IMG/VR virus record: IMGVR_UViG_3300025645_000365
Span: 1 to 27,507 of that record
Origin: a virus
Length of the DNA: 27,507 nt
Reading direction: 5' to 3' (one strand)
The notes under the pieces were generated by a model. It searched no databases, had not been told where the DNA came from, and saw nothing but the letters and a program-made list of their open reading frames with translations. The position numbers and the translations under genes are program-made. This document shows positions 1,735 through 8,309 of the stretch, piece by piece. The first letter of the stretch is position 1; the number at the start of each line of letters is the position of its first letter.

Positions 1735-2238
1735 ATGTTTGAAGAGGCAATACTAAATAATAATCCAGAGCAAATTGCTAAGCTTTGGGGACCAGCCGGC
1801 AAGGCGCATGATAGTCCTGATACTGGAATTGAGGTCTTAAAGAAGTCAGCTTACTATGTTATTAGGGACTGCGCTAAAGTAGCAAGATTGTACCTACCTA
1901 TACATGTTTGGGAGTTGTATGATGACCCTGTTACAAGTTTAAAGGGTAAGTTTACTAAAGTGGATGTAGAGGATTTCTTAAAGCGTGCAAATAATGAACC
2001 TGAAGCTAGAGCGTTAAAGAAAGTTATTCTAGCAGATATAAAGATAAAGCATACTTATGCCGAGCCATCACCAGCACCTGCTCAAGCCAGTAGTATGTCT
2101 TTCGAAGAGAGTAGTGACAGTGATGACTTATATGGTTACTACGAAGGGTATGACGATGATGAGGAAGTAAAGGCACCTGTAACACCTACAGCGGAGATTT
2201 TATCTGATGATGGACTTATAAGAAAGTACCTACTTTAG
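1735..2238 (+). CDS. Unknown protein with acidic C-terminal tail
   Basis: A 167-residue protein, the only plus-strand gene within a minus-strand cluster. Residues 1-110 look like a compact, mostly helical domain. Residues 111-167 are low-complexity, with Pro/Ala/Ser followed by Ser/Asp/Glu/Tyr (SDSDDLYGYYEGYDDDEE), probably disordered. No family recognised. An ACTAAATA box lies at 1715-1722, 12 nt from the ATG, a looser spacing than at other late genes. Its TAG stop (2236-2238) overlaps the TAA of the opposing nucleotidyltransferase gene tail to tail. Confidence 0.7.
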   Translation: MFEEAILNNNPEQIAKLWGPAGKAHDSPDTGIEVLKKSAYYVIRDCAKVARLYLPIHVWELYDDPVTSLKGKFTKVDVEDFLKRANNEPEARALKKVILADIKIKHTYAEPSPAPAQASSMSFEESSDSDDLYGYYEGYDDDEEVKAPVTPTAEILSDDGLIRKYLL

Positions 2239-2774
2239 TCCTCAATACTTGAGAAGTTACCTTTCCTAATTTGAGCTACATTCATCTTCTCTAATAGCTC
2301 TGGATTTTGTGCTATTGTCATAGCTGCAATTCTATTCTTAATCCTTGTGGTTGACCACTCATGCGATCTTGTAGTATATACAACACGTGTATCTAAATTG
2401 TCACCTGTAAAGGGCTCATTAATATAATCTTCTCCTAATATTCTAACATCAGGCTTGAAGAACTGTATCAGGTCTAGAAGCTCATCCTCTGTTTGATACA
2501 TATATATCTCATCAACATACTGTATTGCTAGTAGAGTTTTATATCTCTCGTAATACGGTATAATAGGTTTATACTTTGTGTACCGTGTAGCAGATGGATC
2601 CTGTTGTAGAAATATAATAAACTTATCACAGTGTCTCTTCGCTTCCTCAAACGTGTAGGAATATCCCGGGTGAATGAGATCGAACGACCCTGCAGTAAAG
2701 CCTGTGATAGTCTTATCGGGATTTTCTGCTTTTTGTAGTCTATACTCTAGACTATGATCACAATCGCTTTGCAT
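2235..2774 (-). CDS. TagD-like cytidylyl/adenylyltransferase family protein
   Basis: A 179-residue nucleotidyltransferase of the glycerol-3-phosphate cytidylyltransferase (TagD/RibF-like) HxGH superfamily. The nucleotide-binding loop is FTAGSFDLIHPGY (residues 26-38), where the usual second His of HxGH is Tyr38. Further family features are LQQDPSATRYTKYKPI (57-71), PDVRILGEDY (108-117) and the C-terminal signature WSTTRIKNRI (140-149). Related proteins in large phages transfer CMP or AMP onto small phosphorylated alcohols or sugars. The actual substrate here is not known. The His-to-Tyr change may lower activity or be lineage-specific. It is coupled to the upstream 74-residue gene by a TAATG junction and shares its cluster with an RmlD-like reductase, which hints at sugar or surface-polymer metabolism. 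Confidence 0.75.
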   Translation of the reverse strand: MQSDCDHSLEYRLQKAENPDKTITGFTAGSFDLIHPGYSYTFEEAKRHCDKFIIFLQQDPSATRYTKYKPIIPYYERYKTLLAIQYVDEIYMYQTEDELLDLIQFFKPDVRILGEDYINEPFTGDNLDTRVVYTTRSHEWSTTRIKNRIAAMTIAQNPELLEKMNVAQIRKGNFSSIED

Positions 2775-2998
2775 TAGACTATTTCTTTTAACTTAATCTT
2801 CTGTCGACCGAACTTACGCTCAGCTCCATCTACTGCAAGTATCCAGCCCGTCTTTGTAGTTGTATACTGCCAATCATTACTGAGACCAAAACGATCCCCA
2901 TGTAGATGAATACCTAATGCACCCCACATGGTTAATGCTTCGATAATTACTTCTTTTTCGCTATCACAAATTAGCCATTTCTTTTTTTTATTTTGCAT
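2774..2998 (-). CDS. Small unknown protein
   Basis: A 74-residue protein with a lysine-rich start (MQNKKKKWLICDSEKE), tryptophans and a basic C-terminus. No family recognised. It overlaps the RmlD-like gene upstream by 11 nt and the nucleotidyltransferase downstream by 1 nt (TAATG), so all three are probably co-transcribed and translationally coupled. Confidence 0.6.
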   Translation of the reverse strand: MQNKKKKWLICDSEKEVIIEALTMWGALGIHLHGDRFGLSNDWQYTTTKTGWILAVDGAERKFGRQKIKLKEIV

Positions 2999-3836
2999 TC
3001 CAGTATAGTGCTTGAAGAAGAGCCTTTTGTTCAGTTAGAGGCTCAAAACCATATTTATTCTTAAGCTTAGTAATGTCAAGTGTACAATTACTCCTTCCAC
3101 ACTTTGTTCCTAGCTCTTCAAACTCAACCACTTCCCAGTTCTCATTAACCATTCCATTCACCTTCATAATCTCTGTAACTTCAAGAGTAGAAAGAGGTTC
3201 TGGGTTAACAAAGTTAATAATTTCATTATCATTATGACCTTCTGAGATGTATTTGTTAATAAACTTAGTAAGATCATTCATGTATGTCTTTGAGTTCTTA
3301 CCTGGGTCAATTAGCTTATCATATCTAAGAAGCTTTGCAACAATAGACCTATCAGTATTATCATCATCAAATGGCATTCTGATTCTGATAGTCAGCCCAT
3401 AATCACTACTCGCTAATTCATAAGCATGCTTCGACTTTGAGTAGAATGACGACTCGTTACTAAACACTCCATAGTTTGCAGGGTCTTTTTCAGTCCATGC
3501 TTTATCATAACCACTATAAACACAACCAGAGGAGATGTGAATGTAAGGAATATTATGCACCCTACAAGCGTTGTTGACCATTGCAGGAGCTGTTACATTT
3601 AACTTCCAGCAATCCTCTTTATTATCTTCACACCCATCTACGTTAGGTCTGCCTGTGTAGCCAGAACAATTAACTACGTAATCAGGCTTATACTCAAATA
3701 GATACGTCTCGAGAATATCAGAGTCGGTATAGTTTAGAGAGGCTTTTGAGACAATCTCTACATCATGATCCTTCTTAAGTCTATTATACAAATACCCTCC
3801 AGTATAGCCGTAGCCTAAAATTAAAACTTTTTTCAT
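2988..3836 (-). CDS. RmlD-like NAD(P)-dependent sugar reductase/epimerase (extended SDR)
   Basis: A 282-residue extended short-chain dehydrogenase/reductase. The Rossmann glycine motif GYGYTG is at residues 8-13 (GxGxxG). A second segment, PDYVVNCSGYTG (51-62), matches the D-x-V-(I/V)-N-x-A/S region of RmlD. The catalytic Ser is in ISSGCVYSG (101-109) and the Tyr/Lys pair is Y132-x-x-x-K136. The length matches dTDP-4-dehydrorhamnose reductases and related nucleotide-sugar epimerases. It probably reduces or epimerises a nucleotide-linked sugar, perhaps for modifying a surface glycan or DNA base; the substrate is inferred only. It begins the three-gene unit down to 2235. The ATG lies just after an AT-dinucleotide run (3837-3848), and no clear promoter box is visible. 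Confidence 0.75.
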   Translation of the reverse strand: MKKVLILGYGYTGGYLYNRLKKDHDVEIVSKASLNYTDSDILETYLFEYKPDYVVNCSGYTGRPNVDGCEDNKEDCWKLNVTAPAMVNNACRVHNIPYIHISSGCVYSGYDKAWTEKDPANYGVFSNESSFYSKSKHAYELASSDYGLTIRIRMPFDDDNTDRSIVAKLLRYDKLIDPGKNSKTYMNDLTKFINKYISEGHNDNEIINFVNPEPLSTLEVTEIMKVNGMVNENWEVVEFEELGTKCGRSNCTLDITKLKNKYGFEPLTEQKALLQALYWNAK

Positions 3837-5014: not shown

Positions 5015-5042
5015 ATTATAGTATAAAACTGATCATTTGCAA
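5015..5042 (-). promoter_or_regulatory. Sigma70-like promoter for the nuclease gene
   Basis: Minus strand: TTGCAA (5042-5037), 16-nt spacer, TATAAT (5020-5015), then 7 nt to the ATG at 5007. The expected transcription start coincides with the start codon, so the message would be leaderless or nearly so. It lies back to back with the fibre gene's late promoter. Confidence 0.5.
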
Positions 5043-5049
5043 CTAAATA
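5042..5049 (+). promoter_or_regulatory. T4-type late promoter box (ACTAAATA) for the fibre gene
   Basis: ACTAAATA exactly 5 nt before the ATG at 5055. This supports that ATG over the in-frame TTG at 5037, which lies upstream of the box. Confidence 0.6.
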
Positions 5050-5054
5050 ATCAT

Positions 5055-8000
5055 ATGAGCTGCGACGGCATACCCATTTCACAACTACCAAACACAAATA
5101 CCCCATATACTGGCTTAGAGCAGCTAGTATTTGTACAGGATAATATAACTAAGACCGGCACGGTGGACACGCTAAGAGAATTTATATCACCTGATATCAG
5201 TAACTTTATATCGCTTACAGGTAACTGGGAGAATACATACATTACTGTCGCTGCCAAAGAGTTCTTATGGGATAATGCGTATGATTTGGTGTTTGGCAGT
5301 GAGCCAAGGTGGAATAGTAACTACACTACAGTGCAAGCTAACAGTGCCTGCTGGGCGTCAACTTGTACGACAGTTAGTGCTAACAGTGCTGCTTGGAGCC
5401 AAGAATTAGAACTTAACGATTTAGCTGATGTCGCGACAAACTTGAATACATTTTCAATTGAATTTGTACCGATTGGAGATGCAGGTAATGTTGCAGATAC
5501 TACAACTTATGGCGCTGTATCATATGATTATTGTATTAGTAAGTTTGAAATTACTGAAGGTAACATTGCTGAGTATAATGCTGACCCTGCAAATAGCACT
5601 CGTCTGATTACAATAGATAGTCGTGGTACTGATAAACCAGCTACAGACATAACTTGGAACGAATGTGCTCGTTATGTTAACTGGCTTAATATAAATGATG
5701 GAGCTCAACCAGCGTATAATTTTGCTCTACCCGGCATTAATGAAAATATTGATCTTTGGACTTCTGGCGAAGCATGGCAGCTTGATGGTGAGAATCTCTT
5801 TAGACATAAAGACGCAAAATACTTTATACCGAACGAAAATGAGTGGTATAAAGCCGCTTATTATAAGGGTGGCGGCACTAACGCTGGTTATTGGTTATAT
5901 CCAACAGGATCCGATACTGCTCCAACAGCTGTAACATCTGGAACTGTTGATGATACCGCGGTATATATCGGTGCCGGTGTAACACCTTTAAGCCCAGCTG
6001 ATGTCACAGAGGCTGGTGGGCTCAGTCCTTATGGTACAATGGGACAAGGTGGTAATGTATACGAACATACGGAGAATACTTTTGATGGCGCTAACGATAA
6101 CGTCCTTGTTAATCGGGTACACCGCGGCGGTAGCTTTGGTCTCCTTGCAAGCACCTTGATAAATACCCATCGTGCGTTTGCCGGTGCAAATACCGGGAGC
6201 CCGTCGAAAGGTCTTCGTGTCGCGATGGTCTCTGACGGTGATGATTGCGGTGGTACTACTTCATATAAAGCTGATGAAACTCATACTTTAGTATATAACT
6301 CATTAGTTAATAAATGGGTTGCATCTAAAAACATACCATATGGTGACTTCTGTAATGAGGTTGTATATATGAGTGAGATAGGCTCCTGTGCCTCTAGTAC
6401 AATATCAATTTCTGCAGATTTAGATCTTAACAACTATAGCATAGAAAACTTTAGAGTTAATGATCTAAATGTTAGTGGTTCTGCTACTATAGATGGTATC
6501 CTTAGTTCTGGTGATGTTGTTTATTCAGCTACTAGTAATAGTACACAATGGACTGATACATATAGTACGGTAAGCTCTAACTCAGCCGCTTGGGATGCTC
6601 TTACAGATCCGTATGATGATAGTTTACTACAATCTACTTCAGGTAACTGGAATAGTGCTTATACGACTGTAAGTGCTAATAGTGCTTCTTGGATTGGTGG
6701 AGATTACGATGACTCTTTATTGCAATCTACTTCAGGTAACTGGAATAGTGCTTATACGACTGTAAGTGCTAATAGTGCTTCTTGGATTGGTGGAGATTAC
6801 GATGACTCTTTATTGCAATCTACTTCAGGTAACTGGAATAGTGCTTATACGACTGTAAGTGCTAATAGTGCTTCTTGGATTGGTGGAGATTACGATGACT
6901 CTTTATTGCAATCTACTTCAGGTAACTGGAATAGTGCTTATACGACTGTAAGTGCTAATAGTGCTTCTTGGATTGGTGGAGATTACGATGACTCTTTATT
7001 GCAATCTACTTCAGGTGATTGGAATAGTGCTTATGACGAGCTGGTTAGTATTGGGTTAGCGGGTAATAATATTACAAATGCTGATGTTATATCAGCTAAT
7101 ATTATACATTCAATTTCTGCCTTTACTCACTACCAAGACATATTGGTATCTGAGCTTAGTGGGTTTAGTGTTGAAGGGGACGTTAGTATTGCTGGTCAAG
7201 TTGACGTTACCGGTACATTAAGTGCTAACGATATCGTTTATGCTTTAGATGGTAATAGCTCACAGTGGAATAATACATATACAACAGTACAATCTGAAAG
7301 TAGTAATTGGGTCAGTACTCTACCAACTCTCGATTCAGTCACGACAAACGGAGCAACTACCCTCAACGATATTAGTGTAGGCAGGATTGTAACTTTGCAC
7401 CCTACTAATCCGGTAAATGACAACGTTGCCACGGGCAATCAAGCTTGCGCTATTGGAGGCGTTGCAAACCAAGTAAGCGGCAATCGCTCGGTAAATTATG
7501 GAGGGCGTGAGAATGTAGTTTCTGGCAACGATAGCTCTACGATTGGAGGCTTCGGTCAAATTGTGATTGGGCAAGAATCTGAAGGATTTGGGTCTACAGC
7601 CACAACTCTTAACACGAAATATACGAGTGCTGTTGGAACAATCAACAGCGTTGTCGGATTATCAGGACAGGGAACGGCATCAACAGCGACAAAACATTCT
7701 GCAGTTCTCGGTGGAGATACAAACATAATCGAAAGCGCAACTGAAGCGGTCATAATTGGTGGGGATACAAACACAATCCAATCTACCCACCATCGCTCTG
7801 TAATATTAGGAGGCACGGGCATCGTAACAGATGCAGCGGATACAGCATACGTTCCAAACCTTAATGTTGGTGCAGGCTTCAAAATGCCAACAGGCGCGGG
7901 TGATTCTTATGTGCTAACCTCAGATGCAAATGGCGTCGGAACATGGCAAGCTAATATAGATGCACTACAAATAGCTGCGTCTGATGAAACAACAGACTTA

Positions 8001-8309
8001 ACAACAGGTATTACAACCACGTTTAGAGCTCCTTATGCGATGGAGTTGACAGATGTACGTGCAAGCGTTACAACAGCTCCTGTTGGCGCAGATATTACGG
8101 TAGATGTTACAGCTAATGGTACTACTATATTTTCAACAATTATATCTATTGACGATGGTAGTAAGACAAGTGTTGGGTCTGCTTCCCCGAGGGTCATATC
8201 TACTACATCTATACCTGATGATGCAGAGATTAAAGTTGATATTAAGACTGTAGGTAGTACGACGATAGGTAACGGGCTGAAGTTATCCTTTATCGGTTAT
8301 AAATCATAA
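5055..8309 (+). CDS. Modular tail fibre/adhesin with embedded FGE-sulfatase (C-type-lectin-fold) domain
   Basis: A 1084-residue protein. Residues 1-50 resemble the N-terminal segment of many marine phage fibre-like proteins (ISQLPNTNTPYTGLEQLVFV). Next come W-x-(N/S/D)-x-Y-(T/I)-TV-x-A-N-S-A-x-W repeats (about 58-125). Residues 136-392 form an FGE-sulfatase/SUMF1-type domain (SKFEITEGN, NEWYKAAYYKGGG, GNVYEHTEN, RGGSF, GLRVAM). No Cys lies at its end where active FGE has its catalytic pair, so it is probably a binding lectin-fold module. Residues 519-665 are near-perfect 31-residue repeats. About 771-950 is a YadA-head-like beta-roll of xIGGxxNxVSG units, and 968-1084 is a beta-rich C-terminal domain ending in LKLSFIGYKS. 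The likely role is receptor binding as a trimeric fibre; attachment to the baseplate is inferred. The gene converges on the 8316-9350 gene. Confidence 0.8.
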   Translation: MSCDGIPISQLPNTNTPYTGLEQLVFVQDNITKTGTVDTLREFISPDISNFISLTGNWENTYITVAAKEFLWDNAYDLVFGSEPRWNSNYTTVQANSACWASTCTTVSANSAAWSQELELNDLADVATNLNTFSIEFVPIGDAGNVADTTTYGAVSYDYCISKFEITEGNIAEYNADPANSTRLITIDSRGTDKPATDITWNECARYVNWLNINDGAQPAYNFALPGINENIDLWTSGEAWQLDGENLFRHKDAKYFIPNENEWYKAAYYKGGGTNAGYWLYPTGSDTAPTAVTSGTVDDTAVYIGAGVTPLSPADVTEAGGLSPYGTMGQGGNVYEHTENTFDGANDNVLVNRVHRGGSFGLLASTLINTHRAFAGANTGSPSKGLRVAMVSDGDDCGGTTSYKADETHTLVYNSLVNKWVASKNIPYGDFCNEVVYMSEIGSCASSTISISADLDLNNYSIENFRVNDLNVSGSATIDGILSSGDVVYSATSNSTQWTDTYSTVSSNSAAWDALTDPYDDSLLQSTSGNWNSAYTTVSANSASWIGGDYDDSLLQSTSGNWNSAYTTVSANSASWIGGDYDDSLLQSTSGNWNSAYTTVSANSASWIGGDYDDSLLQSTSGNWNSAYTTVSANSASWIGGDYDDSLLQSTSGDWNSAYDELVSIGLAGNNITNADVISANIIHSISAFTHYQDILVSELSGFSVEGDVSIAGQVDVTGTLSANDIVYALDGNSSQWNNTYTTVQSESSNWVSTLPTLDSVTTNGATTLNDISVGRIVTLHPTNPVNDNVATGNQACAIGGVANQVSGNRSVNYGGRENVVSGNDSSTIGGFGQIVIGQESEGFGSTATTLNTKYTSAVGTINSVVGLSGQGTASTATKHSAVLGGDTNIIESATEAVIIGGDTNTIQSTHHRSVILGGTGIVTDAADTAYVPNLNVGAGFKMPTGAGDSYVLTSDANGVGTWQANIDALQIAASDETTDLTTGITTTFRAPYAMELTDVRASVTTAPVGADITVDVTANGTTIFSTIISIDDGSKTSVGSASPRVISTTSIPDDAEIKVDIKTVGSTTIGNGLKLSFIGYKS
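5450..6232 (+). other. FGE-sulfatase/SUMF1 (C-type-lectin fold) domain-coding segment within the fibre gene
   Basis: Encodes about residues 133-392 of the fibre. The motifs run in the usual order: F-V-P-I-G, EITEGNIAEYN, KPATDITWNECARYVNWLN, FIPNENEWYKAAYYKGG, YPTGSDTAPTAV, MGQGGNVYEHTEN, VHRGGSF and KGLRVAM. The same fold carries the hypervariable site of known DGR target proteins (Mtd, TvpA). The module sits between copies of the fibre's W-Y-TTV repeat, as if inserted into a shaft. Confidence 0.75.
6114..6232 (+). other. Candidate hypervariable (DGR-like) region of the lectin domain
   Basis: Encodes residues 354-392 (RVHRGGSF through GLRVAM). By my count 6121-6240 has 69 G/C in 120 (57.5%) and only 21 A (17.5%), against 33 A in the preceding 120 bases. 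Codons at the tip-loop positions are mostly NNY (ttt, ggt, ctc, ctt, aat, acc, cat, ttt, gcc, ggt, aat, acc, agc), as expected if AAY template codons had been mutated at A. No template repeat or reverse transcriptase is visible in this window, so this is suggestive only. Confidence 0.3.
6609..7050 (+). repeat. 93-bp perfect tandem repeats in the fibre gene
   Basis: Copies start at 6609 (diverged first 20 or so bases), 6702, 6795, 6888 and 6981 (partial; diverges from about 7016). The three units starting at 6702, 6795 and 6888 appear identical. Each encodes 31 residues (DYDDSLLQSTSGNWNSAYTT and then VSANSASWIGG). Near-zero divergence implies recent expansion or ongoing recombination. Copy number probably sets fibre shaft length. 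Confidence 0.95.

Follow-up and report, generated by a model that had tools for sequence, protein, structure and literature searches.

Several described systems are close to the locus analyzed here. In Treponema denticola, the DGR variable protein TvpA (PDB 2Y3C) adopts an FGE-type C-type-lectin fold, some DGR targets lie far from the core cassette, and orphan targets occur in isolates without a complete DGR (PMC4891356). In the Akkermansiaceae PEP-CTERM FGE-target DGRs (L184 and L185) and in the cassettes of the IMG/VR records L014 to L016, the target is a bacterial surface protein with its variable region near the C terminus, and the reverse transcriptase (RT) and the template adjoin it (an Avd gene is named in L184). 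In Bordetella phage BPP-1, the Mtd DGR acts on a receptor-binding phage-fibre tip, also built on a C-type-lectin fold, and the RT, Avd, template, and downstream hairpin are all present in cis. When the BPP-1 DGR was supplied by the host, it wrote the phage during lytic infection, as demonstrated experimentally (PMC3240598). No report of natural writing in trans was found in the literature searched, which was a limited library. As noted by Roux et al., remote targets escape their DGR survey method (PMC8144416). DGR surveys begin at an RT with a nearby target, and phages carrying DGR-type variable regions without RT or template would be missed.

Here, a 27,507-bp linear virus fragment (the window) was analyzed, which belongs to a T4-like phage according to its terminase and sheath matches. 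The RGGSW...GFR tip of an FGE domain in its tail fibre aligns with the C-terminal variable region of TvpA (PMC4891356). Unlike that of TvpA, the window tip is internal in a phage fibre, carries Phe for Trp, and is accompanied by neither RT nor template. In T. denticola, target and cassette reside in the same bacterial species, whereas the present target is carried by a phage that lacks a cassette altogether. The FGE domain of the window shares 47 to 48% amino acid identity with the DGR targets of the Akkermansiaceae genomes G273 and G159 and of L014 over about 265 residues. Sister tips in related phages share a template skeleton with the Akkermansiaceae systems and with L014 to L016, but the window tip does not match it. 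Neither RT nor template was detected in the window or in its complete relative, G011, and no strong hairpin followed the window and sister tips; BPP-1 served as the control. The tip is probably an orphan variable region that a bacterial DGR either donated or wrote in the past and that now drifts and recombines.

The fibre gene and its FGE domain

The features of the locus are collected in Table 1. An FGE-sulfatase domain had been proposed in the fibre from the sequence, and PF03781 matched it with 37.7 bits (cut-off, 23.3; E = 2e-9). The fibre had no match in PHROGs, and no phage in INPHARED matched the FGE domain. In a profile search against all PDB chains, the best match was TvpA (2Y3C; E = 1.7e-15). 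AlphaFold models were weak, with a mean pLDDT of 39 (11 rows) or 53 (23 rows) and a tip below 30; Foldseek on such a weak model also placed TvpA at the top, at an E value of only 0.012. The FGE/C-type-lectin domain ends in a variable tip, as do DGR variable proteins on this fold. This tip occupies residues 353 to 396 of 1,090, so the site is internal rather than C-terminal, and Phe follows RGGS in place of Trp; both points had been noted correctly.

Table 1. Features of the fibre locus (positions in the window)
Feature	Coordinates	Strand	Remarks
Tail-fibre-like ORF	5037..8309	+	1090 aa, TTG start as called; carries the FGE domain
FGE-type (C-type-lectin fold) domain	5454..6224	+	PF03781
Hypervariable, variable-region-like tip	6093..6224	+	Spans 44 codons; five alleles give 31 variable sites
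A-poor, GC-rich segment	6121..6240	+	From base counts
Tip 3' end GGTCTTCGTGTCGC	6210..6223	+	13/14 bases as in sister tips and some bacterial templates (GGTTTTCGTGTCGC)

The module at 5463-6223 is 87 to 95% identical at the DNA level to phages without similarity in the compared flanks. The window and L001, for example, have this module in common but not the flanks. In the fibres of T4-like phages, the FGE domain would serve as a receptor-binding module that can be exchanged, with the tip presumably encoding the ligand-facing part of the lectin domain.

A 93-bp tandem repeat (4.5 copies; unit encoding YDDSLLQSTSGNWNSAYTTVSANSASWIGG) lies in the fibre gene at 6623-7039. The near-identical record L017 aligned as two segments with their overlap inside this array, which suggests a change in copy number or a limit of assembly. 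The distal fibre at 7326-7950, with AIGG/SVNYGG-type repeats, shares 73 to 84% DNA identity with positions 3288-3867 of L011, another fibre region of G011-type phages, and is a second exchanged module. Sugar-nucleotide-type genes (cytidylyltransferase-like and RmlD-like) adjoin the fibre region on the minus strand at 2235-3836.

Composition and variability of the tip

The anomaly in base composition was confirmed. The A-poor segment has 57.5% GC and 17.5% A, compared with 27.5% A in the 120 bp before it and 38.5% GC in the record. When the whole record was scanned, 120-bp windows equally A-poor and GC-rich were found only within 6113-6241. The sequence-only reading had also regarded the codons between RGGS and GLRVA as mostly NNY, as expected after randomization of template adenines. 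This proportion is 64% among the 25 codons and 62% gene-wide, and 55% of windows of equal size reach it. An NNY excess was rejected as a sign of a DGR, as it is not above the gene average.

Starting from twelve close relatives of the FGE domain, a substitution hotspot was observed at 6093-6224. The window and L001 differ at 19 of 132 positions in the tip, versus 2 of 486 in the body (5607-6092; p = 9e-12). For L007 and L010, the corresponding counts are 18/132 and 12/486. The records L002 and G011 are 99.84% identical over 14.9 kb, and 6 of their 24 differences fall inside the 138-bp tip, all nonsynonymous (p = 7e-8). In all three pairs, pN exceeded pS in the tip. As the tip contains synonymous changes too, selection on point mutations alone cannot explain the contrast between the window and L001.

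Such a pattern could also be expected from ordinary adhesin-tip evolution, in which modules are swapped, alleles are joined near 6090 and 6224, diversifying selection acts on receptor binding, and a DGR was never involved in the tip. The near-identity of the module in phages with unrelated compared flanks agrees with this explanation, as do the spread of the variable sites of the window-class tip over the three codon positions (11/11/9; 9 of 31 are third positions) and the lack of a template. In addition, the L002 states at all six sites differing from G011 are present in other alleles, as micro-recombination would give. However, both flanks of the L002 and G011 tips are 99.8% alike, yet six dispersed differences occur in the tip only. 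The domain also falls within a family of DGR targets, and these phages carry sister tips of the DGR type. On balance, this explanation is unlikely.

Search for DGR machinery in the phages

The relative G011 (170.7 kb) carries six FGE domains in three fibre genes, one of which holds a homologue of the window's module. This genome is complete, because it has a 61-bp direct terminal repeat (170656-170716 and 1-61) and contigs of two other records span the join. No RT was found in G011 by PF00078 or by phmmer or tblastn with DGR RTs; the controls worked for PF00078 and tblastn (the BPP-1 RT was found by PF00078 at E = 9e-19). PF00078 likewise found no RT in the window or in 26 records retrieved via its terminase, the largest of 80 kb. 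An RT was also absent from 12 module- or FGE-bearing relatives and from another 26 phage records with FGE domains. In a search of 49 other phage records, L014 to L016 alone had one. As the window is a 27.5-kb fragment, the absence of RT is shown for its relatives only; one of the records with a window-class module is complete, and the window phage is known from fragments.

Templates were searched for in several ways. A single copy of the tip is present in the window, as the sequence-only reading had stated, and also in G011. A pattern scan of IMG/VR gave one match per contig, which in known module records was the tip itself, and no template for the window tip was found in 387 Verrucomicrobiales genomes. 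When the collected loci were scanned for A-run templates, true templates were found only in L014 to L016 and BPP-1; the other matches look low in complexity or AT rich. A template in cis was rejected, none having been found in the window, in G011, or in any other record covered.

Searches for the accessory elements were less informative. PF05635 gave no match to Avd, controls included, and tblastn with the G273 Avd gave none in G011 or in the controls. A strong hairpin was absent after the window and sister tips and also after Akkermansiaceae variable regions with intact cassettes; the BPP-1 control was found.

A DGR in cis, that is, an RT and a template of the window phage's own beyond the 27.5-kb fragment, has very little probability. 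The record is a fragment, and BPP-1 shows that phages can carry such cassettes. However, no RT was present in the complete G011 or in the three sets of terminase-related, module- or FGE-bearing, and further FGE records, and G011 lacks a template-like copy.

Conversion between paralogues of G011 was rejected as a source of the variation, since its remaining FGE domains have tips too unlike to be donors. The G011 tip at 53977-54111 was likewise rejected as a template: it is conserved (0 of 135 differences even in L007) but dissimilar to the variable tip. It belongs to an unusual arrangement at 52.5 to 54.2 kb of G011 (L090; gene 50365-54732), where one whole FGE domain, tip included, separates the body of another from its tip. 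This looks like an insertion into the variable loop of the outer domain, whose tip is unchanged in L007 and L078 (overall alignments there, 93 to 94%).

It is highly improbable that a trans DGR, supplied by the host or a coinfecting element and with a window-class template yet to be sequenced, is now acting on the window tip. The clustered nonsynonymous changes between L002 and G011 are recent, as such activity would produce, and between the window and G011 the tip has a lower pS than the body (0.07 versus 0.25) and a higher pN (0.13 versus 0.10). The 3' end GGTYTTCGTGTCGC is conserved, and BPP-1 offers a precedent for the writing of an infecting phage by a DGR that the host supplies (PMC3240598). 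Against this, no template was found in the 387 Verrucomicrobiales genomes or in IMG/VR, third-position changes are present, the tip has no downstream hairpin, and a single allele is shared by seven of the eight G011-type records that have this tip. The present variation of the tip more probably arises from recombination among alleles and selection than from current retrohoming.

The original proposal of a DGR variable region inside a tail fibre needs to be divided. A hypervariable, variable-region-type tip of a DGR-target fold is indeed present, but the results do not support a DGR belonging to this phage. The link to a retroelement is real but located outside the phage.

Sister tips and their bacterial counterparts

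In gene B of G011, the tip of the middle FGE domain contains 71% GC and 8% A, and the body of that domain about 40% GC. The tips of G011-B2 and L011-B2 differ at 33 of 138 bp, whereas the counts for the two neighbouring tips are 0 and 1. All but one of the changes (32 of 33) fall on first or second codon positions, mainly of NNC codons. In this pair, the body has a pS of 0.26, and the tip proper has a pS of 0.00 and a pN of 0.33. Over the sister tips, the variable columns are distributed 18/20/2 by codon position, and the skeleton is conserved. A nonsynonymous rise without synonymous change at AAC-compatible codons is the pattern of adenine-directed writing from a common template, which marks the sister tips as typical DGR-type variable regions.

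A skeleton pattern from the G011-B2 tip was searched against 257 Gb of prokaryote genomes and gave one match, an Akkermansiaceae PEP-CTERM FGE protein (L113). Its contig also carries what we take, from the sequence, to be thiC-like and penicillin-binding-protein-like genes. The FGE body of L113 is only 31 to 36% identical to the phage bodies, yet its tip retains the skeleton. Between the phage tips and the L113 tip, pS was 0.06 to 0.17, versus about 0.8 for the body (p down to 1e-13). The skeleton also occurs in the second domain of L001 and in L122.

A template of 116 nt was reconstructed from the phage tips and the L113 tip, with the variable sites set to A. When it was compared by BLAST with the 387 Verrucomicrobiales genomes, the best matches were AAC-rich repeats, with identities of 91% (G159), 88% (G273), 86% (G237), and 85% (G199). 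G273 and G159 contain complete Akkermansiaceae DGRs, with FGE target, RT, and template in one cassette, and the Avd-like gene of G273 passes the NCBIfam Avd cut-off. All 21 mismatches between the G273 target and its template are at template adenines. Similar FGE-target cassettes are present in IMG/VR (L014 to L016). For the L011-B2 tip and the G273 template, 22 of 31 mismatches are at A, and the others are taken as probable fixed differences between template lineages. As the mismatches are partly off adenines, the template of the phage tips would belong to this bacterial family and differ from every template recovered.

The window tip belongs to a second class, together with those of the first domain of L001, G011-A2, and L007. 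Its synonymous sites do not match those of the bacterial tips (pS, 0.55 to 0.70). The series of GC and NNC contents runs from fresh to ameliorated tips, with the window tip placed between the fresh ones and the C tip of G011. Invariant AAT codons are retained in the window tip. By sequence, its conserved 3' end would correspond in position to a putative IMH region. The window tip thus appears to be an older variable region, partly ameliorated, and we infer that it has the same origin as the sister tips, which a DGR located outside the phage genome seems to have written.

On this reading, the module would descend from surface proteins diversified by DGRs in Verrucomicrobiota. The window tip would owe its low A and high GC content to descent from a tip of bacterial type, DGR-written and rich in both NNC codons and GC, whose composition has since been partly ameliorated in the AT-rich genome of the phage. 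The synonymous mismatch with the bacterial tips, the third-position changes, the missing template, and the invariant AAT codons speak against this origin, and another foreign source might account for the GC excess. A phage without a DGR might acquire DGR-written tips by trans retrohoming during infection, by recombination with a written bacterial target, or by loss of its own cassette. For the skeleton class, recombination is a less probable route, as the phage and bacterial bodies share only 31 to 53% protein identity, leaving little flanking homology. We tentatively consider it possible, although not the likelier case, that the orphan fibre tips of T4-like phages, including that of the window, were written in trans by DGRs of Verrucomicrobiota hosts and then spread and decayed between phages. 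The bacterial host assignment is a putative one, taken solely from the shared template.

If the tips were written in trans, a host enzyme system would give tropism variation to phages lacking one. If they were only captured, bacterial surface proteins would still be a source from which phages take lectin tips that have been diversified beforehand. CAGTCG remnants of the skeleton were also observed in the FGE tips of the phage records L120, L122, and L128, with tip GC contents of 0.49 to 0.70, apparently at differing stages of decay.
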